From NCBI RefSeq assembly GCF_900113805.1, contig NZ_FOQT01000005.1, forward strand, positions 1-64,000: a stretch of DNA of 64,000 nt, written 5' to 3'. Below are positions 29,849-59,059 of this stretch, in pieces. The notes under the pieces are model-generated. The model was given only the letters and a program-made list of their open reading frames with translations, made no database searches and was not told the origin of the DNA. Made by a program: the position numbers and the translations under genes. Positions within the stretch are counted from its first letter, which is position 1, and the number at the start of each line of letters is the position of its first letter. Source of the DNA: Halpernia frigidisoli. GTDB lineage: Bacteria; Bacteroidota; Bacteroidia; Flavobacteriales; Weeksellaceae.

Positions 29849-29924
29849 GCAGCCCGACTTGAGTGGAAATCCTTTTTTTGCATTTGAAAAAAAGATTGGG
29901 AACGGAAGGCGGAAATGTCTGCCC
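29849..29924 (+). repeat. Dispersed structured repeat, copy A
   Basis: The conserved flanks CCCGACTTGAGTGGAA and TGGGAACGGAAGGCGG surround an apical T-run/A-run hairpin (TTTTTTTGCATTTGAAAAAA). The closing pair is GCAG...CTGC. It is nearly identical to copy B (39031-39106) and shares the flanks with copies C (47761) and D (58964). Just after it, a second hairpin, AGACATT...AATGTCT (29941-29965), is followed by a repeated TGTCTGCCCAAAT. Confidence 0.85.
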
Positions 29925-30012
29925 AAATAAAATAGTAAATAGACATTCGACAAAGTCAAATGTCTGCCCAAATCAAGAATTTTACAACTTTTAAAACTCT
30001 GATTATTTTCCT

Positions 30013-30020
30013 TAATTTTG
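30013..30020 (+). promoter_or_regulatory. Candidate -7 box of tyrS (TAATTTTG)
   Basis: An exact TAnnTTTG match 19 nt before the tyrS start codon. The upstream TTTG element is not clear. Confidence 0.45.
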
Positions 30021-30039
30021 CGACTTAAAATTACGAACG

Positions 30040-31335
30040 ATGAACGCTTTTATTGAGGAACTAAAATGGCGCGGACTTTACGCCGATATGATGCCCGGAA
30101 CCGATAAACAACTGGATAAGGAAATGACGACAGGCTATATTGGGTTTGATCCGACGGCGGATTCTCTGCATATTGGAAGTTTGATCCAGATCAAAATTTT
30201 GGCGCATTTTCAGCAGCATGGTCATAAGCCAATTGCTTTGGTAGGCGGCGCAACGGGAATGATCGGCGATCCGAGTGGAAAATCTAACGAGAGAAATTTG
30301 CTAGATGAAGCGACTTTGAACCATTATGTTTCCTGTCTTAAAAAACAATTGTCGCAGTTTCTAAATTTTGAGGGAAATGAGGCGAATAAAGCGGAATTGG
30401 TGAACAATTTTGACTGGATGAAAAGTATTTCTTTCCTGGATTTTGTGCGTGATATCGGGAAAAATCTGACCGTGAATTACATGATGGCGAAGGAATCTGT
30501 GAAGAAAAGACTGACAGGCGAAAATGGCGCGGAAGGGATGAGTTTCACGGAATTTACTTACCAATTATTACAGGGTTTTGATTTCCTGCATTTGTATCAA
30601 AATAATAATGTGAAACTCCAGATGGGCGGAACTGACCAATGGGGAAATATCACGACCGGCACGGAATTGATCCGAAGAAAAGTGCAAGGTGAAGCATTTG
30701 CTTTGACAACAACTTTGATCACTAAATCTGACGGGTCGAAATTTGGGAAAAGTGAAGCGGGTGAAAATTACTGGCTGGATGCGAAGAAAACTTCGCCTTA
30801 TAAATTTTATCAGTTTTGGGTGAATTCTACGGATGAAGATGCGAAACGTTTTATTAAATTTTATACTTTCTTGTCGGAAGAAACGATAAATGATTTAATT
30901 AAATCTCATGAAGAAGCGCCACACGAAAGATTGTTGCAAAAAACTTTAGCGGAAGAAATTACGGTTTGGGTTCACGGAAAAGAAGAATTTGAAAAAGCGG
31001 TTAAAGCGTCAAATATTTTGTTTGGGAAATCGACTGCGGAAGATCTAGTAAATTTAGATGAAGCAACTTTTCTTGAAATTTTTAGCGGCGTTCCGCAAAA
31101 AGAAATTTCTAAAAGTGAGATTTTAGAAGGAAATATTGTTGATTTATTGTCTGAGCAAAGTGGATTTTTAAAATCTAAAGGTGAAGCAAGACGTGAATTT
31201 GCGGGAAATGCGATTTCATTAAATAAAGAAAAGATTAACGAAAATATTCAAATTACGGAAAAAGATTTTGTGGATGGAAAGTTTTTATTGCTTCAAAAAG
31301 GGAAGAAGAATTATTTTATTGTGAAAGGGATTTAG
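30040..31335 (+). CDS. tyrS: Tyrosyl-tRNA synthetase
   Basis: A class I aminoacyl-tRNA synthetase of 431 aa that charges tRNA-Tyr. The ATP-binding HIGH-type motif is HIGS at residues 44-47 ([12 protein letters not shown]) and the KMSKS counterpart is KFGKS at 234-238. The tyrosine-binding segment is [12 protein letters not shown] followed by [10 protein letters not shown]. The C-terminal region (about 360-431) is an S4-like RNA-binding domain, including [17 protein letters not shown]. It is a monocistronic gene with its own terminator. Confidence 0.97.
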
Positions 31336-31343
31336 ACTTGAGA

Positions 31344-31378
31344 TTTTTAGATTTTAGATTTTAGATTTTAGATTTTAT
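31344..31378. repeat. Heptanucleotide tandem repeat (ATTTTAG)
   Basis: At least three perfect copies of ATTTTAG (31351-31371), with degenerate copies on both sides, follow the tyrS stop. A shorter run of the same unit lies at about 42487-42512 between the two ABC permease genes. Confidence 0.75.
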
Positions 31379-31385
31379 ACAGAAA

Positions 31386-31415
31386 AGCAGATTTCAAACT
31401 GAAATCTGCTTTTTT
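31386..31415. terminator. Bidirectional rho-independent terminator
   Basis: The perfect 11-bp stem AGCAGATTTCA / TGAAATCTGCT has loop AAC and is followed by TTTTT. It serves tyrS and, in the other direction, the end of the oxidase operon. Confidence 0.9.
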
Positions 31416-31434
31416 ATATTTTGATAAAATTTAT

Positions 31435-31848
31435 TTAAAAAATCCCGTTAGAATATTCAGTTATTAAATAATAAGCTGACCACGCTAAAATGATCATGAT
31501 CATCACCCAAACCCACACAGGAACTGTTTGTGGCGTTTCACTACCTTCAATTACGAAACTTTTAGGCAAACCTTTGTCATAAGCATTGATCATTAAAGGC
31601 AAACTTCCTTCTACAATATCGTTTTCACTTAGACCTTCCACACTAATCGTTGGTCCGTTTTTAACCTGAAAATTAATTAAGCGAATACCTTCACGACCAG
31701 TCATAGATTTGCTGACAATTTTTAAAATATGTTCGCCATCCGGAATTTTATTGGTGTCAAAATTAAAAACAATAGGCGTCTCAAGTTCTGCTATTGGTTG
31801 CTTTTCATCATCTAAAAAGAGAAAAACTTTGCTGTGATCTTTAGTCAT
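31435..31848 (-). CDS. Membrane-anchored protein of the cbb3 oxidase operon
   Basis: A 137-aa protein with a soluble beta-rich N-terminal part (VFLFLDDEKQPIAELETP, then a PDGEHILKIVSKSM stretch) and one C-terminal membrane helix (about 110-128: VPVWVWVMIMIILAWSAYYL). It is the last gene after the oxidase subunits, with a 12-nt gap to the preceding small gene. It resembles proteins annotated only as hypothetical or cytochrome-associated in related operons. It is possibly an accessory or assembly subunit. This is inferred from context. Confidence 0.6.
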   Translation of the reverse strand: MTKDHSKVFLFLDDEKQPIAELETPIVFNFDTNKIPDGEHILKIVSKSMTGREGIRLINFQVKNGPTISVEGLSENDIVEGSLPLMINAYDKGLPKSFVIEGSETPQTVPVWVWVMIMIILAWSAYYLITEYSNGIF

Positions 31849-31860
31849 TTTCTTTAAAAT

Positions 31861-32124
31861 TTAATCCTGCAAAATGGAATATTTAATATGATTGCTCTTT
31901 TTTTCGCCTGGTTTTGCTAAATATTTTACAGAGAAAATTAAAGTATAAATGATGATCGCTGTCACCACTGCGACAATGACCCAATCCAAATTCCCCTGCG
32001 GACCTGCGCCATGCGTATAACTTCTGGTAACGGGCGGTTGAGCCAGTTTACAGGCTTCGCAAGCCCAACTAAAATTAATGATCAGTAAAAAAATCAGAGT
32101 CAATTTTTGTTTTAAATTTTTCAT
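31861..32124 (-). CDS. Small secreted/membrane protein of the cbb3 oxidase operon
   Basis: An 87-aa protein with a signal peptide or first membrane helix (residues 8-20), a short segment with a cysteine pair (CEACK, Cys22 and Cys25) and a second helix at about 49-68. The CxxC is not a haem motif, as no His follows. A copper or redox role can be imagined, and so can an assembly role, but neither is shown. It lies 7 nt after the cytochrome c subunit gene, so it is certainly in the oxidase operon. Confidence 0.6.
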   Translation of the reverse strand: MKNLKQKLTLIFLLIINFSWACEACKLAQPPVTRSYTHGAGPQGNLDWVIVAVVTAIIIYTLIFSVKYLAKPGEKKSNHIKYSILQD

Positions 32125-32131
32125 TTTTCTC

Positions 32132-33127
32132 TTATTTAATTTTATCGTAGGCTGCTTTCACGTCTTCCAAACTTACCGGTTTTGCTTTATTTCCCCAGGC
32201 TCCCCTTTCATAATTCATTATTGCATGTACGATTTCGGGTGTGAAGTTTGCCGTTGTACCAACCGCAGGCATTGGCCCATAGCCCGGTCTGCCGTTGTAA
32301 CCTTTCATCATAATTGTGACAAACATTTCTATATCATCACCTATTACGACCGGACTTCCTTTTAAAGGCGGAAATGCTCCCGGTAAACCTTCGCCAGTTG
32401 CCTGGTGACAAGACGCGCAGTGCGTCGTATAAAGTTCCTCGCCGTTTGGTCCACCTGCAACAGCGCCCGCTGCTCCATTTTCTTTTTTAAAATCCTGTTT
32501 ATAAATAAATTCAACAGGTGCTGTTCCTTTTGGTAAAGGGGTTTGTTTTAAAGATAATAAATAGGCTATAAGCTGCTGAGCCTTTTTGGTAGCAACAATG
32601 TATTTTGATTTGTGCTTTTTATATTCGTCAGGCACTTTTACTTCAAGATCACCTTTTTGCAAAAAATCTTTCTCCTCGAAAAGCCATTGAAATGCCGGCA
32701 TTATGGATTGTTTCACCAATGCTCGCGGCTGATAAAGATGGACATAATGCCAATCTGTACTTGGTTGACGTTCGCCAATTGAAGTAAGGTCCGGTCCGGT
32801 GCGTTCCGTTCCCATTAAAGTGGCTGTATTCTGCCAAACATTTAATCTTTTGTTACCCGCATAATCTGCAGATATGCTAGGTCTTGAGCCATAAACTTTG
32901 TCCATATCCGCCTCGCGAACCTGCTGCGTATGACAGGCAACACAACCATTCTCAATATAAATTAATTTTCCAGCTGCCGCATCTTTACTTAAAGGTTTGG
33001 CGTCCGGAAGCGGCTGATAAATATCCTGATTTGTAAGTGCCGGAAGAATACAAACATTTAAAGTTAAAAAAGCGAAAAATAATAATGCCGTCCAAAAAAG
33101 CAGTTTATGATTACTGTACATTTTCAT
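32132..33127 (-). CDS. ccoO: Fused CcoO-CcoP-type dihaem cytochrome c subunit of cbb3 oxidase
   Basis: A 331-aa protein with one N-terminal membrane anchor (about 9-31). The first part is CcoO-like: haem site CVACH (Cys62-His66) followed by TQQVR, and later GPDLTSIG, YQPRALVKQSIMPAF. The second part is a small class I cytochrome c domain with CASCH (Cys237-His241), HQATGEGLPGAFPPLKGSP and a likely Met ligand in GPMPAVG. Standard cbb3 oxidases have separate CcoO and CcoP chains, so this is a fusion. It delivers electrons to the CcoN subunit encoded just upstream. Confidence 0.9.
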   Translation of the reverse strand: MKMYSNHKLLFWTALLFFAFLTLNVCILPALTNQDIYQPLPDAKPLSKDAAAGKLIYIENGCVACHTQQVREADMDKVYGSRPSISADYAGNKRLNVWQNTATLMGTERTGPDLTSIGERQPSTDWHYVHLYQPRALVKQSIMPAFQWLFEEKDFLQKGDLEVKVPDEYKKHKSKYIVATKKAQQLIAYLLSLKQTPLPKGTAPVEFIYKQDFKKENGAAGAVAGGPNGEELYTTHCASCHQATGEGLPGAFPPLKGSPVVIGDDIEMFVTIMMKGYNGRPGYGPMPAVGTTANFTPEIVHAIMNYERGAWGNKAKPVSLEDVKAAYDKIK

Positions 33128-33214
33128 AAGTAGATTTTAATTGTTTTAAATAGTCTTGCGGTTTCTCTACTTTTCTTATTTATGTTAAATCCTGTCAAAA
33201 AAGATTTCATAGTA

Positions 33215-34969
33215 TTAATTTTTTGTAGTATTAAATTCCTGATTGGTCATCATTTTTTTTGCATTTAAAATCTCTGCAGGCGACTTTGGAATCAAAATTC
33301 TTGGTTTTCGGTTGATCATTGTATAAAAATTGTAGGCAAAAACAAGATGCGAAATCCACATCATCGTACCACCGATCGCGCGCCAAAGCCAAAAAGGCGC
33401 CATTAAAGTTAATCCTTCCACAAAAGGTTTTCCTGCCATCCACAACATTCCTTTTTCTGTTGCACCAATCATTAATGAAACTGTGTAAAACATTAACCCA
33501 ACTAAAGCCAGCCAAAAATGAATTCCGACCCAAACTTTTTTTGGTTCTCTACCCGTTAATCTAGGAACTAACGTATAAATAAAGCCCCAAAGCATAAACG
33601 TAATGATTCCATACATCGTTAAATGCGAGTGCGCAACCGTAAAATCAGTAAAATGCCAGATCAAATTTGTGAACCGAAATGCTTCAACGGTTCCCTGCAT
33701 TGAGCCGGTAAAATAAAATATAATTCCTATTAAATAAAATGGTAAAGTATAACTGGTTCTCAATTTATACCACGCACCATTAAAGGTTAAAAGAAAATTA
33801 GTCGTTCCGGAAACAACAGGAATGATCATCCCAACACTACAAACGATCGCTACAGTTTGCAACCACCAGGGAATCGCACTAAAAATAAAATGGTGACTTC
33901 CTAAAGCCGTGTAAAATAATATCTGTGTCCAAAAAGCTAAAATCCCTAAGCTGTAAGAGTAGATTGGTTTATTTAATTGTTGCGGAAGAAAATAGTACAT
34001 TAAGCCTAAAACCAAAAACATAAACCACATTCCTACGCCCTGGTGCATATAATATCCTTGTGTTATAGTTTCGCCCAGACCATTTTGCCAAAAAGGAAGA
34101 TAACCAGTCAATGAAATAACGATCACGTACATCATTGCCGAAACTATATACCAGTTTGAAACATAGATCTCGTGAGTGGTACGGCTCGCGATAGTTTTCA
34201 AAAAATTATAAAGTGAAAGCGCAATACCAACTGCAAAAAGTAACATTACCGGCCAAATATATTCCCGATATTCACCGCCGGAATTATTAATGCCCGCCAT
34301 CAGAGAAATACTACCCAGCGCAACTGCAGAATTCATAAACCACAAAGAATAATATCCAATTTTTAGGCTAAAAATTCGCACATTACTTACGCGCGGGATC
34401 ACATAGTAAGCCAAACCAACCATCGCGGTAGATGCCCAACCCCAAAAAACCATATTGGTATGAACGGGTCTTAATCTGCCAAAACTCAACCAGCTTTGAT
34501 GATCAACGTCCGGTGCAACGAATTTTATACCTAAATATTCTCCAACTGATGTCGCAATAATTAGCCAGGCGACGGCACTTCCAATAAAATAAATGATGAG
34601 TTTAGATAAATGTTTGGAAACATATTGTTGCGATTGAAAACTTTGTTTCTCCGGAATAACGCGGATATTTTCTATCGTATTAATGTTGGAAATAATTCCC
34701 GTTTTGTCCGAAACAGGTAAATCTCCGGAAAGGATATTTCCCGGCAATTTGTAATCCAGTTCGTCCTGTCTTTTTTTAAAATTTTCCAGCTCATCCGGTG
34801 TAAGATTTCCAAGATTTTTTGTAAAATCTGAAAGTTCTTTTCTTCTTTTTAAATTTAAATAAGAATTATAAAGCTTTACAACACCAATAATTAAAGCGAC
34901 AATTATAGGTAAAAGAATAAGCAGTAATGTGATCTGGATGCCAGATTCTCCAAATAGACCGTTGTTCAT
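33215..34969 (-). CDS. ccoN: cbb3-type cytochrome c oxidase subunit I
   Basis: The catalytic haem-copper oxidase subunit of 584 aa. Visible ligands are the low-spin haem His in RPVHTNMVFWGW, the CuB His in GYYMHQGVGMW, the His pair in FYTALGSHHF with Tyr six residues before (the cbb3-type Tyr position), and the haem His residues in WHFTDFTVAHSHLTMYG. About twelve core helices are present, plus an extra N-terminal helix and a charged linker (about residues 1-125) not typical of simple CcoN. It reduces O2 with high affinity and pumps protons. Confidence 0.93.
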   Translation of the reverse strand: MNNGLFGESGIQITLLLILLPIIVALIIGVVKLYNSYLNLKRRKELSDFTKNLGNLTPDELENFKKRQDELDYKLPGNILSGDLPVSDKTGIISNINTIENIRVIPEKQSFQSQQYVSKHLSKLIIYFIGSAVAWLIIATSVGEYLGIKFVAPDVDHQSWLSFGRLRPVHTNMVFWGWASTAMVGLAYYVIPRVSNVRIFSLKIGYYSLWFMNSAVALGSISLMAGINNSGGEYREYIWPVMLLFAVGIALSLYNFLKTIASRTTHEIYVSNWYIVSAMMYVIVISLTGYLPFWQNGLGETITQGYYMHQGVGMWFMFLVLGLMYYFLPQQLNKPIYSYSLGILAFWTQILFYTALGSHHFIFSAIPWWLQTVAIVCSVGMIIPVVSGTTNFLLTFNGAWYKLRTSYTLPFYLIGIIFYFTGSMQGTVEAFRFTNLIWHFTDFTVAHSHLTMYGIITFMLWGFIYTLVPRLTGREPKKVWVGIHFWLALVGLMFYTVSLMIGATEKGMLWMAGKPFVEGLTLMAPFWLWRAIGGTMMWISHLVFAYNFYTMINRKPRILIPKSPAEILNAKKMMTNQEFNTTKN

Positions 34970-38446: not shown

Positions 38447-38472
38447 TGTCATTGCGAGGAACGAAGCAATCT
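38447..38472. repeat. Short palindromic repeat (ATTGCGAGGAACGAAGCAAT type)
   Basis: TGTC, then ATTGCGAGGAACGAAGCAAT, then CT. The ends ATTGC and GCAAT pair around a purine-rich loop. I recall this motif as a repeat found in many bacterial genomes. One copy is seen here, between nrdA and the type E repeat. Confidence 0.55.
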
Positions 38473-38527
38473 TTTATTTTTATTTTTACCTTTTTTGGGA
38501 GCAGAAAGTTTCCGCTTCTTTTTAAAT

Positions 38528-38601
38528 GTCTTCCCGCTTTCCACTATATCTTTTTATTTTTTTCAAAAAAAAATAAAAAGGATGCCGTTTCAATCGGGGC
38601 T
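38528..38601 (-). repeat. Dispersed structured repeat, type E
   Basis: Read on the minus strand, CCCCGATTGAAACGGCATCC is followed by a T-rich/A-rich hairpin and then AGATATAGTGGAAAGCGGGA. The architecture (conserved flanks, ATCC before the T run, GAT after the A run) is like the A-D family, but the flank sequences differ. The gap 38427-38676 holds this element and the short palindrome and no gene. Confidence 0.65.
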
Positions 38602-38676
38602 ATTAAAATCGTTTTTTTCTCTTTCGTAAGATTTTTTCACCTCGATGAAATAGGAAATATTCTTTAAAGCAATTTT

Positions 38677-38994: not shown

Positions 38995-39030
38995 TTTGAG
39001 TTCTAATTTAAAATTCGCCTTTTTGGATTT

Positions 39031-39106
39031 GCGCCCCGACTTGAGTGGAAATCCTTTTTTTGCATTTGAAAAAAAGATTGGGAACGGAAGGCGGAAACTG
39101 GCGCCC
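39031..39106 (+). repeat. Dispersed structured repeat, copy B
   Basis: Almost identical to copy A, but the closing stem is GCGCC...GGCGC in place of GCAG...CTGC, a compensated difference. It lies between the small hypothetical gene and nrdB, in plus orientation. Confidence 0.85.
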
Positions 39107-39164: not shown

Positions 39165-40139
39165 TTAAAACAAATCGTTCGCAGTAATACTTTTATCGTG
39201 TTTTGTATAGTCAGTAGGTCTTTTGGCGAAGAAATCATCCATAGAGTTGGCGAAAACTTCTTCCTCAAACCACATCATTGGCCGGTATTGTTCCGGCGAA
39301 ATATTGTAACGCGGTTTCATGCCGATTTTTTTCAAACTGTCATCCACTCTGTATTTCATGAAGTTGTAAAGATCTTCTTTTGAAATATTGTCAATTTCGC
39401 CCATTTCAAAGATCCAGTCTAATAATTTTGCTTCAAGTTCCACGGACTGATCTACCAAAGTGTAAATATCTTCAATATCAGATTCTGTTAAAAGATCCGG
39501 TTGCTCTTTGCGAATGGTATTAATCAAATAAATTCCTGCGTTGGCGTGAATCTGCTCATCAACGGAAGTCCAGCCAATTACGTTGGATACATTTTTAAGA
39601 TAACCTTTAAATCTTGTAAACGATAAAATAATCGCAAACTGACTGAAAAGCGACACATTTTCTATTAAAATACTGAAAAGCAACAATGAAGAAACGTATT
39701 CTTTTGGCGTCGTAGAATTAGCAAATTTCAAAACATTTCCAAGGAAATCGATGCGTTCTTTTACGGCAGGAACTTCTACGACAGAAGTAAAATCTTCATT
39801 GTAACCCAAAACTTCCAACAGTCTTGAATAGGCTTCACTGTGGCGAAATTCGCATTCGGCGAACGTAGAACCAAGTCCATTAAATTCTGGTTTTGGCAAA
39901 TGCGTGTAAAGATTTCCCCAAAAAGTTTTCACAGAAACTTCAATTTGTGCGATCGCTAAAAGTGAATTTTTGATCGCGTTTCTTTCTTTAGGCTCCAGTT
40001 GAGAATGGAAATCCTGAATATCCGCGGTAAAATCTACTTCAGAATGAACCCAAAATGATTTATTGATGGCATCCGTGAACTGTGTAACTTCAGGATATTC
40101 AAATGGTTTGTAACTTACTCTTTTGTCGAAAATGCCCAT
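39165..40139 (-). CDS. nrdB: Ribonucleoside-diphosphate reductase, beta subunit
   Basis: The radical-generating subunit of class I ribonucleotide reductase, 324 aa. Diiron ligand motifs are visible: the Asp/Glu region DFHSQLEPKERNAIKNSLL, ECEFRHSEAYSRLLEVLGY (Glu and His ligands, Tyr radical region), ILIENVSLFSQFA (Glu) and DEQIHANAGIYL (Glu-x2-His). The C-terminus ends ITANDLF, the tail expected to dock into the alpha subunit. Its upstream region contains palindromes and DnaA-box-like sites. Confidence 0.96.
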   Translation of the reverse strand: MGIFDKRVSYKPFEYPEVTQFTDAINKSFWVHSEVDFTADIQDFHSQLEPKERNAIKNSLLAIAQIEVSVKTFWGNLYTHLPKPEFNGLGSTFAECEFRHSEAYSRLLEVLGYNEDFTSVVEVPAVKERIDFLGNVLKFANSTTPKEYVSSLLLFSILIENVSLFSQFAIILSFTRFKGYLKNVSNVIGWTSVDEQIHANAGIYLINTIRKEQPDLLTESDIEDIYTLVDQSVELEAKLLDWIFEMGEIDNISKEDLYNFMKYRVDDSLKKIGMKPRYNISPEQYRPMMWFEEEVFANSMDDFFAKRPTDYTKHDKSITANDLF

Positions 40140-45942: not shown

Positions 45943-46665
45943 CTAAGTGGTTTGTTTTGTTGCCAAAGTATAAACTACTAATCCGAAACCAATCTTATTG
46001 ATCGCATCAGCAATGTTATAAGCAACATCTACGCTTCCAGAACCCAAAAGGCTTGTGTACCAGCCGTTTGTCCCAAGCATATAACCTAGCGGATAAATTG
46101 CCCAGCCAACAAGAACGAACCAGCATAAAATTTTATGTGATGCCAAGACATTTCCACCAGCTGCTTTTGCTAATTTCGCTGCACTACCGAACCAAATTAT
46201 ATAAACAATTACGAAGTAAAATGCACCGGAAATCGCACCCCAAAGTGCAGCTTGTCCGCTGAAAACAGTTTCTCCAAGATATCCAGTAACTAACATCCCT
46301 AAAGAAAGCAAAATCATTTGTACAAGTAAATCGGTTTTTGCACCGGCTACTTTTAAGATCAAATAGAACTCAACACACATCAATGGAACGGTTAAAACCC
46401 AATCCACATAACGGAAAAAAGTTGGCGACTCATGAACGTCTACCCAATATTGCTTCATGTAGAAGTAATGGACCGCAGCAATAAACGTGATTAACCCGGA
46501 AATCAGAACTGATGTACGCCATTTCTTATCAAACTGATTCAGCGATAAGAAAAAGAAAGCTGATGCTGCCATCATTGCCATACAACCAACAAAGAATGTA
46601 AATCCAACATAATCGTCAGAAGCCATTTTGACCATTGTGGTCGAAAGTAAAGTTAAAGTTTGCAT
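45943..46665 (-). CDS. Proteorhodopsin, light-driven proton pump (green type)
   Basis: A 240-aa seven-helix microbial rhodopsin. Helix C reads RYVDWVLTVPLMCVEFYLIL, giving proton acceptor Asp88, Thr92 and donor Glu99, the DTE motif of proton pumps rather than NDQ sodium pumps. His66 corresponds to the conserved His near the acceptor. The spectral-tuning position holds Met96, which predicts green absorption. The retinal-binding Schiff-base lysine is Lys224 in NIADAINKIGFG. It is divergent from the Blh gene that would make retinal. The start could be the first Met or one of two Mets within 14 residues. Confidence 0.95.
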   Translation of the reverse strand: MQTLTLLSTTMVKMASDDYVGFTFFVGCMAMMAASAFFFLSLNQFDKKWRTSVLISGLITFIAAVHYFYMKQYWVDVHESPTFFRYVDWVLTVPLMCVEFYLILKVAGAKTDLLVQMILLSLGMLVTGYLGETVFSGQAALWGAISGAFYFVIVYIIWFGSAAKLAKAAGGNVLASHKILCWFVLVGWAIYPLGYMLGTNGWYTSLLGSGSVDVAYNIADAINKIGFGLVVYTLATKQTT

Positions 46666-46804
46666 AAAGTTTTAAGTTTTAAGTTTTAATTAAATTAATT
46701 ACATCAAATTTAGACAATTATTTTAATAAATTACACATTTTAGTAAATTATTTTACCTTAAATTATGATAACTTTTTATAAATTTTGTTTTTATCTTTAC
46801 GTTC
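46666..46804. promoter_or_regulatory. Divergent promoter region, rhodopsin/blh
   Basis: On the minus strand TAAATTTG (46705-46712) is an exact TAnnTTTG box about 40 nt before the rhodopsin start. On the plus strand TATCTTTA (46792-46799) lies just before blh. The upstream TTTG elements are weak. A shared region would allow coordinate light or nutrient control, which is not shown by the sequence. Confidence 0.45.
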
Positions 46805-47698
46805 ATGAAGAATCAAAACTTTAAAGTCGTTATCAGTTTTTTCTGTATTTGGTTAACTAATTTTTTTTCTAAAGAAGTTCAATTTGTAAGTTCATTCATT
46901 TTGATCTTAAGTTTCGGGATTTTGCACGGTGCAAATGATCTTTTTTTGCTAAATAAAATTAAAAATAAAAAAAAGCAATCAGTTATTGTTCTTTTAATTA
47001 AATATGTAAGCGTTGTATTATCAGTCGTTATTTTATTTTATTTCATACCTAAGTTAGCTCTTTTATCATTTATTTTGATCAGCGCATTTCACTTTGGTGA
47101 ACAACACTGGACGAATAAATTACATATCAAAAGTGACTTTATTAAAAAAACTTTTGTCTTTTTTTATGGTTTTTTTATCCTTTTTCTGCTCTTTTTCTTT
47201 CACCAAAATGACGTCAGAGATATTGTCTTTACGATAATTGATTATAAAATTTCAAAGTCAGTTATAGAAATCCCTTTCTACATTTCAACTCTTATGCTAT
47301 TTTTAACGGGCACTTACATGTTTTTTAAAAATTCTACATTTAAAGCAAAATTAGTTTTAGAATTGTTTTTTTTAATAGTTTTTGCCGTAATTTTTAAAAC
47401 CGCCGCACTACTTTGGGGCTTCGCCATTTATTTTATTTTCTGGCACAGCATTCCTTCTATGATTGATCAGGTTCAGTATTTGTACGGAAGCTGGAACAAA
47501 AATAATTTTATTAAATACTGTAAATCTGCACTTTGGTTTTGGTTAATTTCAATAGTTGGAATCGCCATTTTATATTTTGTTTTTAAAGATGAAAAACTTT
47601 TTGAAGCTATGTTTTTTGCCTTTTTAGCGGCGATAACAGTTCCGCATGTTTGGGTCATAATTTCAATGTTTGGAACTAAAAAAGAAATAGAAGATTGA
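46805..47698 (+). CDS. blh: Beta-carotene 15,15'-dioxygenase, Brp/Blh family
   Basis: A 297-aa integral membrane enzyme that cleaves beta-carotene into two retinals. It has seven to eight hydrophobic helices. Conserved histidine motifs of the family are in ILHGANDLFLL, SAFHFGEQHW, IFWHSIPSMIDQV and VPHVWVIISMF, which would hold the iron. It is divergently placed from the proteorhodopsin gene, the classic retinal supply arrangement. Carotenoid synthesis genes (crtE, B, I, Y) are not in the window. Confidence 0.93.
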   Translation: MKNQNFKVVISFFCIWLTNFFSKEVQFVSSFILILSFGILHGANDLFLLNKIKNKKKQSVIVLLIKYVSVVLSVVILFYFIPKLALLSFILISAFHFGEQHWTNKLHIKSDFIKKTFVFFYGFFILFLLFFFHQNDVRDIVFTIIDYKISKSVIEIPFYISTLMLFLTGTYMFFKNSTFKAKLVLELFFLIVFAVIFKTAALLWGFAIYFIFWHSIPSMIDQVQYLYGSWNKNNFIKYCKSALWFWLISIVGIAILYFVFKDEKLFEAMFFAFLAAITVPHVWVIISMFGTKKEIED

Positions 47699-47760
47699 TA
47701 ATTTTACTTTATTTAAAATTTGTTTCTACGTGAAAAACCTTTGATTTTTTAAAACAATCT

Positions 47761-47842
47761 GCGCCCCGACTTGAGTGGAACTCTTTTTTGTGCAGCGCAG
47801 CGAAACAAAAAAAGTGGGAACGGAAGGCGGATAAAGGCGCCC
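47761..47842 (+). repeat. Dispersed structured repeat, copy C
   Basis: It has the same flanks as copies A and B (CCCGACTTGAGTGGAA, TGGGAACGGAAGGCGG) and closing pair GCGCC/GGCGC. The apical hairpin is longer and different, CTTTTTTGTGCAGCGCAGCG, then AAACAAAAAAAG, yet remains self-complementary. It lies between blh and dnaG. Confidence 0.8.
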
Positions 47843-47894
47843 AAAAAATTGAAATAAAATAATATTTCAAAATCTAAATTCTTATTTTTACAAA

Positions 47895-49856
47895 ATGATC
47901 TCAAAAAGCACAATTGACAAGATATTTTCAACAATCAGAGTTGAAGAAATTATTGGTGAATATGTGCAATTGAAACGCGCAGGTTCTAATTTTAAAGGTT
48001 TAAGTCCTTTTCACGACGAGAAAACAGCGAGTTTCGTTGTTTCTCCAAGCAAGCAGATCTGGAAAGATTTTTCGTCAGGAAAAGGCGGCACGGCGATTTC
48101 TTTTTTAATGGAAATTGAGCAATTTACTTATCCTGAAGCACTTAAACATGCCGCAAAAAAATACGGAATCGAAGTTGAGGAAGATATCCGGGAATATTCT
48201 GAAGAAGAAAAACAGTCGCAAACTGATCGTGAATTACTTTATAAAATTCATGAAGTTGCCAATAATTTCTACCAGGAACAGATGCGCGAAACCGAAGAAG
48301 GACAAATTATTGGTTTTGCGTACTTTAAAGAAAGGGAATTGCGTGATGATATTATTAAAAAATTTCAACTGGGTTATTCGCCGGAACAACGCGATGCTTT
48401 TACGGAATATGCTTTAGAGAAAGGTTATAATAAAGAAATTTTAGAAAAATCCGGACTTTCTATTTTCCCGGAATACGCTGAAAAAGGCGTTGACAGATTT
48501 CGGGAACGCGTCATGTTTCCTATTTTAAGTTTTTCCGGAAGAGTTTTGGGTTTTGGTGCCAGAATTTTAAAAAACAATGTAAAAGCCGCCAAATATCTCA
48601 ATTCGCCGGAAACGGAAATTTATCATAAATCGAAAGTTCTTTATGGTTTAAGCCAAAGTAAACAAGCGATTTCAAAGGAAAATCTTTGTCTTTTGACGGA
48701 AGGTTACATGGACGTGATCGCATTGCACCAGGTTGGAATTGAAAATGTAGTTGCCAGTTCGGGAACGGCTTTAACAAACGATCAAATTAAATTAATAAAA
48801 AGACTCACCGAAAATGTCACGATTTTATTTGATGGCGATGCAGCGGGAATAAAGGCGAGTTTTAGAAGCATCGATCTGCTTTTAGCGGAAGGTATGAATA
48901 TTCGTATTTTACTATTTCCAGATGGCGATGATCCGGATTCTTTTAGCAGAAAACATCCGAAAGATTTTGTTGAAAATTTTATAAAAACCGAAGCACAAGA
49001 TTTTGTTGAGTTTAAAGCAGATATACTTTTAGAGGAAGCGGGTAACGATTTAACTAAACAGATTGCGGCTATTAAAAGTATTGTAGAATCATTATCTTAC
49101 TATAGTGAGTTGAAAAAAGATTTTTACTTTACTCGAATCTCGAAGAGATTTGGCATTTCAGAAAAAAGTCTATTTAATGAGATGGCGCTTTTAAAACAAA
49201 AAAAAGTACTTAAAGAAGAATCTGAATTAAATAGAAAACTTCATATACCAACAAAATTAGAAAAAGTTGCAGACGTCATTGCAATAAATCCGCTTTTGAT
49301 TTTAGAGGAAAAATTGGTTGAATTAATGCTAAAATATGGCGATCAGATTTTAGAAAAAGAAAGAGATTTAGAGGAAACCGAAGATGAAAATTCCGAAGAA
49401 AATAAAACTGAAAAATACCAAATAACAGTTATTGAGGAAATTATAAATCACTTAGAGGAAGATAATTATGAAATACAAATTGCTTTAAACCAAAAAATTG
49501 TAGATGATATTAAATCAGGACTTCAAAATAAAGAAATCAGAAATGGTGATTTTTTTCTGACTTTAATGGACGAAGAAGTGACTTCAAAAGTGGCAAATTC
49601 GTTAATGACCGTTCATGAACTAAGCAACTGGGAACAACACAATATTTATTTTAAAAGAGAAGATGAATTGGTCCAAAATATAGTTCAGGACGTTATTTTT
49701 AGGCACAAAAGGGAATTTGTTTTAACATTAATAAACGAAACGCGAAAAAAATTAGAAAATCCGGATAGCGATTTTAGCCAGGAAGATTTAAAAAAAATAA
49801 TGCTTTTGACACAATTAAAAAACCAGATAGACAAAGAACTGAATAGAATTGTCTGA
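47895..49856 (+). CDS. dnaG: DNA primase (CHC2 domain without zinc ligands)
   Basis: Makes RNA primers for replication, 653 aa. The N-terminal domain is recognisable (VQLKRAGSNFKGLSPFHDEKTASFVV), but the zinc ligands of the usual CPFH...CFGCGxGG are replaced: Ser for Cys before PFH, and DFSSGKGG for CFGCGKGG. The TOPRIM catalytic core is intact: LTEGYMDVIALHQVG (Glu) and ILFDGDAAGIKA (DxD), with RERVMFPI and VLGFGAR before it. The C-terminal 200 residues are the helicase-binding part. Zinc loss seems normal in this clade, from memory. Confidence 0.95.
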   Translation: MISKSTIDKIFSTIRVEEIIGEYVQLKRAGSNFKGLSPFHDEKTASFVVSPSKQIWKDFSSGKGGTAISFLMEIEQFTYPEALKHAAKKYGIEVEEDIREYSEEEKQSQTDRELLYKIHEVANNFYQEQMRETEEGQIIGFAYFKERELRDDIIKKFQLGYSPEQRDAFTEYALEKGYNKEILEKSGLSIFPEYAEKGVDRFRERVMFPILSFSGRVLGFGARILKNNVKAAKYLNSPETEIYHKSKVLYGLSQSKQAISKENLCLLTEGYMDVIALHQVGIENVVASSGTALTNDQIKLIKRLTENVTILFDGDAAGIKASFRSIDLLLAEGMNIRILLFPDGDDPDSFSRKHPKDFVENFIKTEAQDFVEFKADILLEEAGNDLTKQIAAIKSIVESLSYYSELKKDFYFTRISKRFGISEKSLFNEMALLKQKKVLKEESELNRKLHIPTKLEKVADVIAINPLLILEEKLVELMLKYGDQILEKERDLEETEDENSEENKTEKYQITVIEEIINHLEEDNYEIQIALNQKIVDDIKSGLQNKEIRNGDFFLTLMDEEVTSKVANSLMTVHELSNWEQHNIYFKREDELVQNIVQDVIFRHKREFVLTLINETRKKLENPDSDFSQEDLKKIMLLTQLKNQIDKELNRIV

Positions 49857-53623: not shown

Positions 53624-54031
53624 ATGACATTTAAAATAGATAAATTAGAAGATTGGGAAAACGTAGTTTCATCAATTTTACCACAATTAAAACTTTCTGT
53701 TCTAACTTTAAAAGGAAATCTTGGCGCCGGAAAAACTACTTTTACGCAATATTTATTAAAAAGTTTAGGAAGTAGCGATGAAGTAAATTCACCCACCTAT
53801 TCTATTGTAAATGAATACGATACGCCAAAAGGAAAGGTTTTTCATTTTGACTTATACCGCTTAAAAAATTTAGACGAAGTTTACGATATTGGTATTGAAG
53901 AATATCTGGAAAGCGCCTATTTATCAATAATAGAGTGGCCGGAGATTTACTCCGAAGATCTTGCCGATTTCCCACATCATGAAATGAGCATAGAAACTAA
54001 GGGTTTAACAAGGGAGATAATTTTTAAATGA
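53624..54031 (+). CDS. tsaE: tRNA threonylcarbamoyladenosine biosynthesis ATPase TsaE
   Basis: A 135-aa P-loop ATPase needed with TsaB, TsaC and TsaD for t6A37 modification of tRNA. Walker A is LKGNLGAGKTTFTQYLL (about 28-44). The family's SPTYSIVNEY motif, FHFDLYRLKNLDEVYDIGIEEYL and the IIEWPEIYSEDL Trp motif are all visible. The length is standard. It lies just upstream of the alanine dehydrogenase gene and probably has a separate transcript, since that gene has its own -7 box. Confidence 0.96.
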   Translation: MTFKIDKLEDWENVVSSILPQLKLSVLTLKGNLGAGKTTFTQYLLKSLGSSDEVNSPTYSIVNEYDTPKGKVFHFDLYRLKNLDEVYDIGIEEYLESAYLSIIEWPEIYSEDLADFPHHEMSIETKGLTREIIFK

Positions 54032-54033
54032 TA

Positions 54034-54041
54034 TATCTTTG
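54034..54041 (+). promoter_or_regulatory. -7 box of the alanine dehydrogenase gene (TATCTTTG)
   Basis: An exact TAnnTTTG match that overlaps the most upstream possible start (TTG at 54039) and so argues for the ATG at 54069. The -33 element is unclear. Confidence 0.55.
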
Positions 54042-54068
54042 TACGTTATTAAAAACAGAAAAAAAAGT

Positions 54069-55265
54069 ATGAGTAATCCCGGTAATATATTTACACCGTT
54101 TACAGAGGAAGATCTGATGCCACAGGAAGAAAAACTGGAAGTGGTAAAAAAAGGAAAAAAATTCAGCATCGGTATTCCGAAAGAAACTTGTCTTAATGAA
54201 CGCAGAACGTGTATTACGCCGGATGCTGTGCAGGTTTTGATAAATAATGGGCATCATATTACTATTGAAGCAGGCGCGGGACAAGGTTCATTTTTTACGG
54301 ATCTTCAATATTCAGATTCTGGTGCTAAAATTACAGAAAGTGCTGAAGAAGCTTTTGGACAGGATCTTGTTTTAAAAATAAATCCGCCAACTACAGAAGA
54401 AATTGAATATTTAAAGTGCGGCAGTTATCTTATTTCTGCTTTGCAAATTAATCTTCGGGATCAGCATTATTTTAAAAAATTAGGAGAGAAAAAAATAAAT
54501 GCAATTGCTTTTGAATTCATTTCTGATGAATACAAGCAACTTTCACTTGTTCGTTTGATCGGTGAAATTGCGGGAAATATCGCAATACTCTACTCTTCTG
54601 AACTTTTAGCGTTGTCGAATGGTTTAATGTTAGGCGGAATTACAGGCGTTCGTCCTACAGAAGTTGTTATCATTGGCGCCGGAATTGTGGGCGAATTTGC
54701 GACAAAAGCAGCAGTGGGTTTGGGCGCGAGTGTGAAAATATTTGATAATTCTTTATCCAAACTTCGCAGAATTCACTCTTTGGTTGACAGCCGCGTTCCA
54801 ACTTCAATAATAGATCCTAAGGAATTATCTAAAAGTTTACGTCGCGCAGACGTTGTGATCGGTGCTTTTTCAAAATGGAGTGCTCAGCCAATTGTGACCG
54901 AAGAAATGGTGCAAAACATGAAAAAAGGCAGCGTCATAATTGACGTGACGATCGATAATGGAAAAGTAATTGAAACTTCGGAACTTACCGACATGGAAGA
55001 TCCGTATATTATAAAACACGGCGTTATACACTGTGGTTTGCCAAATTTAACTTCAAAAATGCCACGCACGACAAGTAAGGCAATCAGTAATTTCTTCCTG
55101 AGTTATCTTTTAACTTACGACGATGAAGGCGGTTTTGAAAATATGCTTGTAAGAAGAAACGAAATGAAAGACAGCCTTTATATGTACAAAGGCCGTCACA
55201 CAAAGAAAATGATCTGCGACCGTTTTAATTTAACTTATCACGACATCAATCTTTTAATTTTCTAA
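54069..55265 (+). CDS. ald: Alanine dehydrogenase
   Basis: About 398 aa from ATG 54069 (MSNPGNIFTPFTEEDLMPQE). It interconverts alanine and pyruvate with NAD. The N-terminal catalytic half has IGIPKETCLNERRTCITPDA (substrate Arg/Lys) and the NAD half has VVIIGAGIVGEFATKAAVGLG with Asp in VKIFDNS. IDVTIDNGKVIETSE and HCGLPNLTSKMPRTTS match the Bacteroidota version of the AlaDH/PNT family. The upstream start was rejected because of the promoter element. It ends at the next small gene with 0 nt between. Confidence 0.92.
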   Translation: MSNPGNIFTPFTEEDLMPQEEKLEVVKKGKKFSIGIPKETCLNERRTCITPDAVQVLINNGHHITIEAGAGQGSFFTDLQYSDSGAKITESAEEAFGQDLVLKINPPTTEEIEYLKCGSYLISALQINLRDQHYFKKLGEKKINAIAFEFISDEYKQLSLVRLIGEIAGNIAILYSSELLALSNGLMLGGITGVRPTEVVIIGAGIVGEFATKAAVGLGASVKIFDNSLSKLRRIHSLVDSRVPTSIIDPKELSKSLRRADVVIGAFSKWSAQPIVTEEMVQNMKKGSVIIDVTIDNGKVIETSELTDMEDPYIIKHGVIHCGLPNLTSKMPRTTSKAISNFFLSYLLTYDDEGGFENMLVRRNEMKDSLYMYKGRHTKKMICDRFNLTYHDINLLIF

Positions 55266-55634
55266 ATGAAGAAATTAAAATTTTATTTGATAGGTCTAGT
55301 TCCGGGAATTTTATTTGTGCTTTTTATTTTTGGTAAAAAAGATGCAAGTTGCTCCTATTTTCCAAGCGCACGCGTAAAAGCAGAAACTTTAACGGAAATT
55401 TTTAAATATTCTCCCGATTTTAAGCAGGAAACTGACGCTCAAAAAATAACAGAAAAATTTTTGCGTGACAGTATATTTGAAAATGGAAAAATAGATTTTG
55501 ATCGAAGCAATGCGCAGGAAAAACCCTTTCCTAAATATTTAATAATGTATCCGGCAAAAAATCCAAAGTTTGAAATAGAATTTCAAAAGGCAAAGGATAC
55601 TGCGACTTTCATGAGTTTAAAAACACTTAGATAA
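55266..55634 (+). CDS. Small membrane-anchored protein of unknown function
   Basis: A 122-aa protein with an N-terminal hydrophobic helix (about 6-23) and a small soluble domain with one cysteine (ASCSYF). Conserved-looking features are EKFLRDSIFENGKIDFDRSN and a charged C-terminus. The start codon directly follows the alanine dehydrogenase stop (55265/55266), so the two are co-translated. I recall similar proteins next to alanine dehydrogenase in related genomes, without a known role. Confidence 0.7.
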   Translation: MKKLKFYLIGLVPGILFVLFIFGKKDASCSYFPSARVKAETLTEIFKYSPDFKQETDAQKITEKFLRDSIFENGKIDFDRSNAQEKPFPKYLIMYPAKNPKFEIEFQKAKDTATFMSLKTLR

Positions 55635-55737
55635 ATTTGTTGGGTTGTAAAGTCGTGAAAATATTATTTTTGATTTAAATTTTTATTTTTAAAATTGGTG
55701 AACTGTTAGATTTTTACATTGGTAAATTAATTAAAAT

Positions 55738-56580
55738 ATGAATTTAGCGTTAATTGGTGTTGGTTTAATTGGCGGTTCAATGGCGTTGAAATTGAAACAA
55801 AAGCATTTTGTAAGCAAAGTTTTTGGTGTTGATTTTAATGAAAATCATTTAGCGGAAGCCAAAAAGTTGAACATTATAGATGAGATTTCTGATCTAGAAA
55901 ACGCGGTAAAGAATTCTGATATCATCATTATTGCCGTTCCTGTGGATGCAACGAAAAACATTTTACCTGAAATTTTAAATTTAATTTCCGATAAACAAAC
56001 TGTTTTGGACGTTGGTTCCACAAAATCCGGTATTGCAAAATCTATCGAAAATAATCCAAAAAGAAATCGTTTTGTGGCAACTCATCCAATGTGGGGAACA
56101 GAAAATTCGGGTCCACAAGCTGCAACAGCAGACGCTTTTGCTGAAAGAGCAGCGGTGATTTGTGACGAAGAAAATTCTGCAAAAGATGCTTTAGATCTAG
56201 TTAAAAAATTATACGAAAATCTGGAAATGAATTTATTATTCATGAATTCTGAAGACCACGATATTCATACGGCTTATATTTCTCATATTTCTCATATTAC
56301 GTCTTATGCTTTAGCAAATACAGTTTTAGAGAAAGAACGGGAAGAAGATACTATTTTTCAACTCGCGAGTTCTGGTTTTAGCAGCACTGTTCGTTTGGCA
56401 AAATCTCATCCGGAAATGTGGGTGCCGATTTTTAGACAAAATAAAGAAAATGTTCTTGATGTTTTAAATGAACACATCACACAACTCCGCAAATTTAAAT
56501 CGGCTTTAGAAAAGGATAATTTTGAGTATCTGGAAGAACTGATTACGAACGCAAATAAAATTCGGGGAATTCTGAAGTAG
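55738..56580 (+). CDS. tyrA: Prephenate dehydrogenase
   Basis: A tyrosine biosynthesis enzyme that converts prephenate to 4-hydroxyphenylpyruvate with NAD(P). 280 aa. The Rossmann motif is ALIGVGLIGGSMALKL (about 3-18), followed by VFGVDFNENHL, IIIAVPVDAT, VLDVGSTKSGI and the catalytic HPMWGTENSGPQAA (His). SHISHITSYALAN holds further substrate residues. No fused chorismate mutase or ACT domain is present. It is a standalone gene, and its product is the substrate of the hpd enzyme encoded earlier. Confidence 0.94.
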   Translation: MNLALIGVGLIGGSMALKLKQKHFVSKVFGVDFNENHLAEAKKLNIIDEISDLENAVKNSDIIIIAVPVDATKNILPEILNLISDKQTVLDVGSTKSGIAKSIENNPKRNRFVATHPMWGTENSGPQAATADAFAERAAVICDEENSAKDALDLVKKLYENLEMNLLFMNSEDHDIHTAYISHISHITSYALANTVLEKEREEDTIFQLASSGFSSTVRLAKSHPEMWVPIFRQNKENVLDVLNEHITQLRKFKSALEKDNFEYLEELITNANKIRGILK

Positions 56581-56598
56581 ATTTTTAACAATTTTATT

Positions 56599-57303
56599 CT
56601 ATTGAAAATCTTTATCCGTTATATTTTTATTGTAGTATAATTCAACAATTTTTGAAATTTGATTACCATCTTCGGATACAAAAGTATTTTTAGTATCATA
56701 AATTAAATCACCAAATTTTTTATAATCATCGTAAAGTATAGTTGAAAATGAATTTTTTTCACCATTCTTTATGACTTCTCTTTCCGCTAAAAGATTTGTT
56801 TTTTTATCGTAATATAGATAAGTTACTTTACCATTAATAAGAGTTGCTTTTATCTTCTCACAGTCTTTTTTGTTGGCTTTTTCTTCACCGATATATTCCA
56901 GCTTATATAATGTTGGATCAATATAATCTAATTCATTGATAATATGCTTTCTGTAATCTTTGTCTTTAAATTCTTCCGGATCTGCTAGTTTTTTTTCACC
57001 CCGAACATATTCATAACCAACTTTTCCGTCATAGAAAGACTTGTAAACAACTCTACCTTCGTATATAATCTCAAAACTTCCTTTGTTTGGCGCCATTTCT
57101 TTTGTAACCCAATTTACATTTCTCCCATCCATTACAGTTTCAGATTTGGAATACATCGTTTTTATACTTTCTAATAAATCTTTGCCGCCCTGTGCCGTTA
57201 TAGCTTTTTCTATAATTATGTTTGCTTTATTGACAGCAGAAGTTTGTGAAAAAATTGTTGTTGTAGAAATTGCAATGGTAAATACAGTTAAGAATGATTT
57301 CAT
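56599..57303 (-). CDS. LolA-like exported protein, unknown role
   Basis: A 234-aa protein with a signal peptide (MKSFLTVFTIAISTTTIFSQ). The mature start NKANIIIEKAITAQGGKDLLESIK is the usual opening of Bacteroidota outer-membrane-lipoprotein-sorting-like proteins. Further features are TKEMAPNKGSFEIIYEGRVV and DKKTNLLAEREVIKNGEK. It is distantly similar in layout to the protein at 14655-15320. The substrate may be a lipid or lipoprotein, but this is not demonstrated. Confidence 0.7.
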   Translation of the reverse strand: MKSFLTVFTIAISTTTIFSQTSAVNKANIIIEKAITAQGGKDLLESIKTMYSKSETVMDGRNVNWVTKEMAPNKGSFEIIYEGRVVYKSFYDGKVGYEYVRGEKKLADPEEFKDKDYRKHIINELDYIDPTLYKLEYIGEEKANKKDCEKIKATLINGKVTYLYYDKKTNLLAEREVIKNGEKNSFSTILYDDYKKFGDLIYDTKNTFVSEDGNQISKIVELYYNKNITDKDFQ

Positions 57304-57424
57304 TAAAAGAATTGTTTTAATTTTTGCTAATTTAATTAATAATTTTGAATTTTATATCTAAAGGATTGTTTTTAAAATTAACTAAATGATTTTAGAATTT
57401 ATCGAATAAATATTCATTGTTTAT

Positions 57425-58843
57425 CTAACATTCCGCTACATTCACCGCGATCGCCAAACCACCTTCCGAAGTCTCTTTAAAACGTTCGTTCATTCCCTGC
57501 GCAGTTTCCCACATCGTTTGTATCACTTGATCTAGAGAAACTTTTGCTTTTTCAGGATCACTTTCCAAAGCGATATTTGACGCCGTAATTGCTTTTATCG
57601 CGCCCATTGAATTTCGTTCTATACATGGGATTTGTACCAAGCCACCAATTGGATCGCAGGTTAAACCAAGATGATGCTCCATCGCAATTTCTGCCGCCAT
57701 TAAAACCTGTCCGGGAGTTCCACCCATAATTTCTGTCAAACCTGCAGCTGCCATCGCCGAAGAAACACCAATTTCTGCCTGACAACCGCCCATCGCAGCA
57801 GAAATAGTTGCATTTTTCTTAAATAAAGTGCCAATTTCACCTGCCACTAAAATAAATCTGATAATATAATCATCACTCGTAAATTCTGTAAAAGCCTGCG
57901 CAAACATCAAAACTGCCGGAATTACACCACTTGCACCGTTTGTTGGGGCAGTAATAATTCTACCAAAACTGGCATTTTCTTCATTAACGGCCAAAGCAAA
58001 ACAAGACACCCATTTATTAATTGTGGTAAAAGTTTCTTCGGCATCAACCACGAGCTGAAACCATTCATCGATATTTTTATAAATTTTATCGCCTAAAAGC
58101 TTTCGGTTCAAATTCGCAGCACGGCGCGTCACATTTAATCCGCCGGGCAAACTTCCTTCCGCATTGACGCCTTTGTAAATACATTCTTTTATTTGTTTCC
58201 AGATATAAAGAGCCTCTGCTTGAGTTTCCTCTTTTGTGCGCCAGGATTCTTCATTAAGATAAATAAGATCTGAAATTTTATCTAAGTTTAATTTATTACA
58301 ATATGTTCGTAGATCTGCGGCTTTATGACACGGATAAAGAGTTCTGATGCAGGTTTCTTCTAATGAATTTTCTTCTTTTGTAGCGACAAAACCACCGCCA
58401 ACAGAATAATAATCTTGTGTTAGAATTTTTCCATCTTCAAAATATGCCGTGAAGATCATTCCGTTTGGATGAAAGTCGAGGGATTTTTCTTTATTTAAAA
58501 TTAAATTTTTGCCATAAATGAAAGGCAATAATTTTTCACCTCCAAGATTTAAAGTATTTGTAGTTCTGATAATTGCTACTTTCTCATCGATTTTTTTGGT
58601 ATCAATTGTTTTAAAATTTTCACCACTTAAACCCAGCATTCCCGCAATGTCAGTTCCATGACCAACACCAGTTTTTGCCAAAGAGCCGAAAAACTCTACA
58701 GATATTTCGTTTACATTTTGTAGAACATCTTCTCTTCTTATTTTATCTAAAAAAAACTCAGCCGCATTCCACGGACCCATCGTGTGCGAACTTGAGGGAC
58801 CAATACCAACTTTTATAATTTCGAATATACTGATGGACTGCAT
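57425..58843 (-). CDS. sdaA: L-serine ammonia-lyase (iron-sulfur type)
   Basis: A single-chain serine dehydratase of 472 aa, converting serine to pyruvate and ammonia. N-terminal beta part: GPSSSHTMGPWNAAEFF and SLAKTGVGHGTD. C-terminal alpha part: PTNGASGVIPAVLMF, NATISAAMGGCQAEIGVSSA, HHLGLTCDPIGGLVQIPCIE. The cysteines in GGCQ, TCDP and PCIE would bind the [4Fe-4S] cluster. Both domains are fused as in most Bacteria outside Firmicutes. Confidence 0.96.
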   Translation of the reverse strand: MQSISIFEIIKVGIGPSSSHTMGPWNAAEFFLDKIRREDVLQNVNEISVEFFGSLAKTGVGHGTDIAGMLGLSGENFKTIDTKKIDEKVAIIRTTNTLNLGGEKLLPFIYGKNLILNKEKSLDFHPNGMIFTAYFEDGKILTQDYYSVGGGFVATKEENSLEETCIRTLYPCHKAADLRTYCNKLNLDKISDLIYLNEESWRTKEETQAEALYIWKQIKECIYKGVNAEGSLPGGLNVTRRAANLNRKLLGDKIYKNIDEWFQLVVDAEETFTTINKWVSCFALAVNEENASFGRIITAPTNGASGVIPAVLMFAQAFTEFTSDDYIIRFILVAGEIGTLFKKNATISAAMGGCQAEIGVSSAMAAAGLTEIMGGTPGQVLMAAEIAMEHHLGLTCDPIGGLVQIPCIERNSMGAIKAITASNIALESDPEKAKVSLDQVIQTMWETAQGMNERFKETSEGGLAIAVNVAEC

Positions 58844-58963
58844 GCTTTAAAATATTTTTTGCTTGTGCGACAAAGATAAAAATTTGAAACAAACATTAAT
58901 TGAATTAAAAGAAAAGAAAAAAATTAGATAAAGAATAAAATATCTTCGAAAAATGGCAGTGAT

Positions 58964-59059
58964 GCAGCCCGGCCTGAGTGGAACTCTTTTTTTCTGCTGG
59001 CTGAGCGAAGCCGAAGCTAGCAGAAAAAAAAGTGGGAACGGAGGACGGAAATGTCTGCC
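58964..59059 (+). repeat. Dispersed structured repeat, copy D
   Basis: Flanks CCCGGCCTGAGTGGAA and TGGGAACGGAGGACGG, with closing pair GCAG/CTGC as in copy A. The apical hairpin is the longest: CTGCTGGCTGAGCGAAGCCG, then AAGCTAGCAG, an almost self-complementary stem. GACTTGA/GGAAGGC has become GGCCTGA/GGAGGAC. The remaining 58844-59239 gap holds a possible 27-codon gene at 59144. Confidence 0.8.

Follow-up and report, generated by a model that had tools for sequence, protein, structure and literature searches.

The window analysed here, a stretch of 64,000 nucleotides of Halpernia frigidisoli (NCBI RefSeq assembly GCF_900113805.1, contig NZ_FOQT01000005.1, positions 1 to 64,000 of the forward strand), contains four dispersed hairpins, referred to as copies A to D, which belong with near certainty to the Flavo-1 family (Rfam RF01705). 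A sequence-only reading had described them as a four-copy structured repeat unknown to it; their positions and common flanks were confirmed, but the element is a known, unexplained hairpin, of which A to D are a variant sub-family. The copies have GAGTGGAA and TGGGAACGGA in common, and GCCCGACTTGAGTGGAA, with up to three mismatches, occurs four times in the window against 0.03 times expected from shuffles. Scores are given for the Rfam model, which has a gathering cut-off of 42 bits, and for R2, a covariance model of the variant built from 26 copies including A to D.

29846-29922, plus strand: copy A, variant Flavo-1 (R2 96.5 bits; Rfam 42.7 bits)
29849-29852 and 29919-29922, plus strand: closing stem of copy A, GCAG and CTGC; the interior consists of arms with purine internal loops and the tip T7-GCATTTG-A7
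29941-29969, plus strand: tail hairpin of copy A, AGACATTCGACAAAGTCAAATGTCTGCCC; the closing strand is repeated in the tail
38526-38605, minus strand: canonical Flavo-1, a fifth family member in the window (Rfam 75.9 bits)
39028-39104, plus strand: copy B, variant (R2 95.6 bits; Rfam 49.8 bits); closing stem GCGC, core and tip as in copy A
39165-40139, minus strand: nrdB; copy B lies behind it and antisense to it
47758-47840, plus strand: copy C, variant (R2 90.4 bits; Rfam 38.6 bits, under the cut-off)
58961-59058, plus strand: copy D, variant (R2 81.5 bits; Rfam 33.8 bits, E 1.1e-5 over 301 bases)
59078-59103, plus strand: tail hairpin of copy D, by its sequence a degenerate one of the same kind as that of copy A

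Copies A and B are thus above the Rfam cut-off and C and D below it, and R2 places all four in one sub-family, A to D being among its own training sequences. The consensus secondary structure of the Flavo-1 arms is matched by the window copies in cmscan alignments. Canonical Flavo-1 and the variant have the same succession of arm parts, namely, CCG/CGG, an A.G mismatch, two pairs, a 3x3 purine loop, two further pairs, a purine loop, AAUC/GAUU, and a variable tip. The variant differs by its own arm consensus (GACTTGAGTGGAA / TGGGAACGGAAGGCGG), by a closing stem that reads GCAGC or GCGCC, and by one extra loop G. Tails resembling the tail hairpin of copy A are present behind other variant copies (uncounted).

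A genome-wide collection of copies was run on the H. frigidisoli genome (label G000; 3.02 Mb, 11 contigs), and it showed that the window's copies are a small sample of the family. With an E limit of 1, the Rfam model gave 141 matches. R2 gave 114 matches of at least 50 bits, 83 of them variant copies and the remainder mostly canonical ones. Of the 83 variant copies, 40 overlap none of the 141 Rfam-search matches. The canonical copies number at least 96, a set resting on an initial Rfam-model pass in which 150 candidates were scored, so that, with the variant, the genome holds at least 179 elements, on both strands. In this tally the copy at C7:101088, which the Rfam model matches on both strands, was entered once, and of the 141, two that were weak and partial were dropped. 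That A to D all lie on the plus strand had been described correctly, but it is accidental. The Rfam family was also searched for in 59 genomes of the order, the present one included, and 31 of them have a match. The repeat is an interspersed hairpin, about 65-130 bp long.

The arms of Flavo-1 are selected as a shape, and selection on a folded nucleic acid, as the sequence-only reading had proposed, is strongly supported. Predicted RNA folds of A to D show the same arms and a hairpin tip in all four, and predicted DNA folds of C and D deviate mid-arm. Taken alone, the RNA folding energy is ordinary for A, B and C (z 0.10, -1.16 and -0.68; D reaches -3.12); it is covariation that speaks for a structure. 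In the window this is seen in the closing stem, which changes from GCAG/CTGC to GCGC/GCGC with compensation, as had been noted. The apical hairpin had been taken to differ in every copy; this holds for C and D, the latter with the longest tip (a 16-pair stem in the predicted fold), but A and B are alike in the tip. Among 80 aligned variant copies, standard pairs make up 98.4% of 1835 pair cells, 17 of the 23 pairs vary at both of their positions, and double changes account for 269 cells against a shuffled mean of 80.3. Alignments made with the models follow the structure by construction; this matters for the tip but hardly for the arms.

The mismatch beside the CCG stem is A.G in 60 and G.A in 18 of 80 variant rows, never a Watson-Crick pair, and A.G in 83 and G.A in 9 of 93 canonical rows. 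The flip from A.G to G.A across copies means that the mismatch itself covaries. A 5'-GNA/5'-GNA loop is likewise present in 89 of 93 canonical rows. These rows bear on the proposal that the copies arose by recent duplication with neutral drift, their pairing being a by-product of palindrome correction through template switching. Correction does seem to happen, e.g., the Flavo-1 copy at C7:101088-101166 is now a perfect palindrome, its left arm being the reverse complement of its right arm. However, correction would give a Watson-Crick pair where 78 of 80 variant rows keep A.G or G.A, and drift or correction is also at odds with a covariation score of 0.403, which collapses to 0.04-0.08 in slid controls. 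Because the mismatch is conserved by exchange, both drift and palindrome correction are excluded as the source of the arm covariation, and as an account of the family this explanation is very improbable.

Variant arms contain 5 G-T, 4 A-C and 5 other mismatches in 1519 cells, and canonical arms 9 G-T, 1 A-C and 20 others in 1013 cells; intermediates between one standard pair and another are nearly missing. The total of 14 G-T against 5 A-C weakly suggests that the plus strand folds, as DNA or RNA. G-T pairs appear rare in Flavo-1 arms relative to ordinary RNAs; tRNAs were sought as a G-U control, and just 8 were found in 60 sources.

The position of the elements relative to genes was assigned by a simple rule for open reading frames (ATG start, at least 80 aa) in place of a gene caller, and the counts cover 176 of the 179 elements, three being skipped. 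An overlap of more than 40 bp with such a frame was found for 9 of the 179. In gaps between co-directional genes, 87 elements are antisense and 43 sense (87/130, p 1.4e-4), so that the orientation check proposed with the sequence-only reading found elements mostly antisense behind genes; of the other elements, 30 are in divergent gaps, which have no stop codon, and 16 in convergent gaps. The 3' end of the variant is within 40 bp of the stop codon that it faces in 28 of 49 cases, compared with 5 of 33 for a facing start and 6 of 28 for the 5' end and a stop; the corresponding canonical counts are 22/54, 1/40 and 6/31. Variant 3' ends cluster 6-16 nt past stop codons. A congener, G001, behaves alike, with 13 antisense and 3 sense among its 22 elements and with 6 of 9 variant copies 10-16 nt past a stop. 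Adjacent elements within 1 kb of each other in H. frigidisoli are arranged minus-plus, with 5' ends facing, in 7 of 7 pairs. Where neighbours are separated by over 5 kb, this holds for 23 of 129 pairs, and the single close pair in each of two other genomes, G008 and G037, is also minus-plus.

On the G008 chromosome, the strands of Flavo-1 form two arcs, mostly plus from 0.78 to 2.77 Mb and mostly minus elsewhere (33+/14- versus 16+/43-, permutation p 0.0008). The sampled GC skew there showed no clear origin or terminus against which a replication-strand bias could be read.

The sequence-only reading had suggested a terminator, a regulatory RNA or a mobile element of the kind of repetitive extragenic palindromes (REP). 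An intrinsic terminator is not supported, since T-rich tails are not enriched where genes end. On the plus strand such tails follow none of the 83 variant copies and 17 of the 96 canonical ones. The minus strand is the one that would be transcribed from a gene ending at the element's 3' end. There, among copies that face a stop, the tail accompanies 10 of 49 variant and 7 of 54 canonical ones; among copies elsewhere it accompanies 15 of 33 and 4 of 40; background rates in flanks are 0.20-0.39, and the tails of Flavo-1 are no commoner. Copies A and C do have a minus-strand T-rich stretch behind the stem, but no stop codon faces that end, and no terminator-like site was found within 46500-48500.

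A broader role as RNA, be it in cis at the 3' ends of mRNAs (for protection, processing or termination) or as a small RNA (sRNA), is judged unlikely. The family was tabulated by Weinberg et al. 2010 (PMC2864571) as a probable RNA that is not cis-regulatory, going by the part of that paper concerned with Flavo-1, and it is counted among the sRNA families of Bacteroidetes in the relevant part of PMC9029176; in PMC3765529 it serves as a test set. The proximity of variant 3' ends to stop codons (28/49) would suit a role in mRNA ends, as would the minus-strand T-rich stretches of A and C, and the minus strand of copy A is predicted to fold well as RNA (z -2.40). In a transcriptome of F. psychrophilum, several 5' transcribed regions coincide with Flavo-1, yet the passages of that study on the family also describe matches in either sense, many of them outside transcripts, and give no clue to function (PMC9723704). 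That remark and the mixed orientation in H. frigidisoli, including the divergent and convergent gaps, both disfavour a regulatory RNA. Moreover, in the commoner orientation the mRNA would contain the complement and not the purine-loop strand, whereas it is on the plus strand that G-T outnumbers A-C; and a 3' end that faces a stop does not have minus-strand T-rich tails more often. The best reading is that Flavo-1 is not a trans-acting sRNA.

The likeness to REP, BIME and REPIN elements, which are moved by REP-associated tyrosine transposases (RAYT) with a Y1 domain, is real in part. As described in the parts of PMC3733652 and PMC6006769 that deal with them, these elements are short, palindromic, intergenic and multi-copy, lie partly behind genes and form close opposed pairs. 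Flavo-1 is likewise multi-copy, intergenic, palindromic and dispersed, and its distribution, position, and gain and loss, as well as its seven opposed close pairs, fit the comparison. It differs in a longer stem, fixed purine loops and an exchangeable tip, and in mostly having no GTAG or CGTC tag: at the 5' foot GTAG was found in 5 and CGTC in 4 of 179 elements, and at the 3' foot, as reverse complement, in 1 and 11 of 179. Nor was a repeat-flanked RAYT found in the genomes checked. None of the five Y1 genes in H. frigidisoli, G008 and G037 has a listed Flavo-1 match within 1 kb, the matches in G008 and G037 being those of the Rfam model. The sole Y1 match of H. frigidisoli adjoins, by eye, hairpins of a different sequence, too short to have appeared in a repeat search limited to 9-base arms. 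A RAYT partner in the same genome, the search for which had been proposed beforehand, was thus not found, the Y1 gene standing beside other hairpins. The counts of Y1_Tnp and Flavo-1 over the 59 genomes do correlate (rho 0.71, and 0.46 with genome size held; the highest Flavo-1 count reads at least 66), but 4 of the 25 genomes with at least five Flavo-1 copies have no Y1 match. Altogether, a classic REP moved by a RAYT of the same genome is improbable.

The Y1 locus of H. frigidisoli (L057, C7:17546-20779) holds a transposase-like open reading frame of 118 aa with a TTG start, flanked on both sides by several hairpins like GACCACACGA..TCGTGCGGCAGCG; the arrangement is REPtron-like, of another family.

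Two further systems invite comparison. The atypical structures that go with TnpA-Y1 subclass 2.6 in Bacteroidetes, as far as the description in PMC6006769 extends, resemble Flavo-1 in being dispersed, unusual hairpins of the same phylum; they differ in that no Y1 gene of the three genomes checked has a listed Flavo-1 match within 1 kb. Integron attC sites fold as a single strand and have conserved ends and a variable terminal structure, as Flavo-1 does. They lie in cassette arrays beside an integrase, in contrast to Flavo-1, which is scattered singly between ordinary genes.

Comparison between genomes shows that elements come and go and that their tips are exchanged. The nearest named relative in the genome set is Halpernia humi (NrdB 95% identity), which is probably of the same species as G001. 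Copy C, situated between a BCD gene on one side and dnaG on the other, is missing from its place in both, each having a short gap. Copy A has an orthologue in H. humi with identical arms and with CCGCCGCGGCGG as its tip, and the canonical element at 38526-38605, which lies upstream of nrdA in sense orientation, has a counterpart there with a different tip. Against an 800-kb part of G001, 29 syntenic sites could be compared. At 12 of them an element of like orientation and sub-family is retained; a 13th apparent site (C6:181187) was excluded, as it merely shares an interval with a neighbour's orthologue. Some other G001 gaps are wide, reaching 702 bases, and absence there means no R1 or R2 match at E 1e-4.

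Six of these 12 orthologous sites have, by eye, a CCGCC..GGCGG hairpin in G001 in place of the H. frigidisoli tip. The paired arm letters are unchanged at two of these sites (C7:114137 and C7:1025163, by eye) and changed, mostly with compensation, at the other four (also by eye). This tip occurs in 9 of the 22 G001 copies (5 variant, 4 canonical), compared with 1 of 179 in H. frigidisoli, the class being defined by a regular expression that misses near variants; all six exact occurrences of CCGCCGCGGCGG in the 800 kb lie inside elements. The presence of this tip in both sub-families means that tips are common to copies with few adjoining bases alike.

The nrdB region shows the same family over a longer range. 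A variant element lies antisense and 13-97 bp behind nrdB in 7 of 80 nrdB loci, and elements recur in the nrdB-nrdA gap across several genera. Two Kaistella loci, L117 and L115, have an element at a second site. In the 75 other nrdB loci for which both flanks are available, the extra sequence at this site is no longer than 40 bases in 44, 41-60 bases in 21, and longer in 10, including L115.

Further small repeats were seen in or near Flavo-1. A GAGCGAAGCGAGCG-type repeat stands just past the nrdB stop in 41 of 80 loci (L058-L137, first 150 bases), and its core is the Flavo-1 tip class of 12 of the 179 H. frigidisoli copies. The palindromic repeat TGTCATTGCGAGG..CGAAGCAATC is free-standing at 38447-38471 of the window, and a close form of it is the tip of the Flavo-1 copy at C3:461088. 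A distinct insert of about 50 bp, with ends like ATTCAATTTATT...CGAAAC..CGTTCCTCGTT and an apparent TTG or TTGA duplication, lies inside Flavo-1 copies at C7:374224, C2:163240 and C5:256073 of H. frigidisoli and at C2:259146 of G001; it is another small mobile repeat. Elsewhere in the window, positions 23847-23952 hold a Bacteroidales small signal recognition particle RNA (96.9 bits, Rfam).

Taken together, Flavo-1 is read as an interspersed DNA hairpin repeat for which the working molecule is DNA, with a probability of roughly 0.6. This reading is preferred because the orientation bias, the copies in divergent gaps, the gain and loss, and the tip exchange fit DNA. The folded molecule would be the plus strand as single-stranded DNA, exposed in replication or repair. 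A single-strand nuclease, a transposase, or a template switch in replication may be what moves the repeat and also exchanges its inner hairpin; exchange as a nested unit would leave the outer pairs matched. The place beside the stop codon may be the least harmful spot for insertion, or may reflect an A/T-tract target.

Several points weigh against the DNA repeat. The search identified no transposase or nuclease and saw no target duplication; in particular, a duplication of the type made by miniature inverted-repeat transposable elements could not be placed, the flanks of filled and empty sites, including that of copy C, being too diverged to set the junction. Y1 transposase counts correlate with those of Flavo-1, so that a role of Y1 is possible. 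The clustering of variant 3' ends past stops could mean a job in the 3' untranslated region, and the excess of G-T over A-C fits a folded RNA equally with single-stranded DNA. The cross-genus sites at nrdB-nrdA, lastly, show that single copies can be old and long-lived.

A more far-reaching proposal is put forward tentatively: Flavo-1 may be a class of mobile single-stranded DNA hairpin outside REP/RAYT, whose inner hairpin would be an exchangeable cassette, swapped in place by nested exchange at the level of the hairpin, even across sub-families, and not by ordinary recombination. Concerted evolution would then run along the arms as paired, instead of along the linear sequence. A literature search that left most subscription journals outside found no paper that treats Flavo-1 as mobile DNA or describes an exchange of tips.

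The Flavo-1 hairpin itself was already known; the variant sub-family is new. Should Flavo-1 prove to be a DNA repeat, many of the sRNA annotations that Bacteroidetes genomes carry would be wrong, and the family would exemplify both hairpin exchange and insertion beside stop codons.

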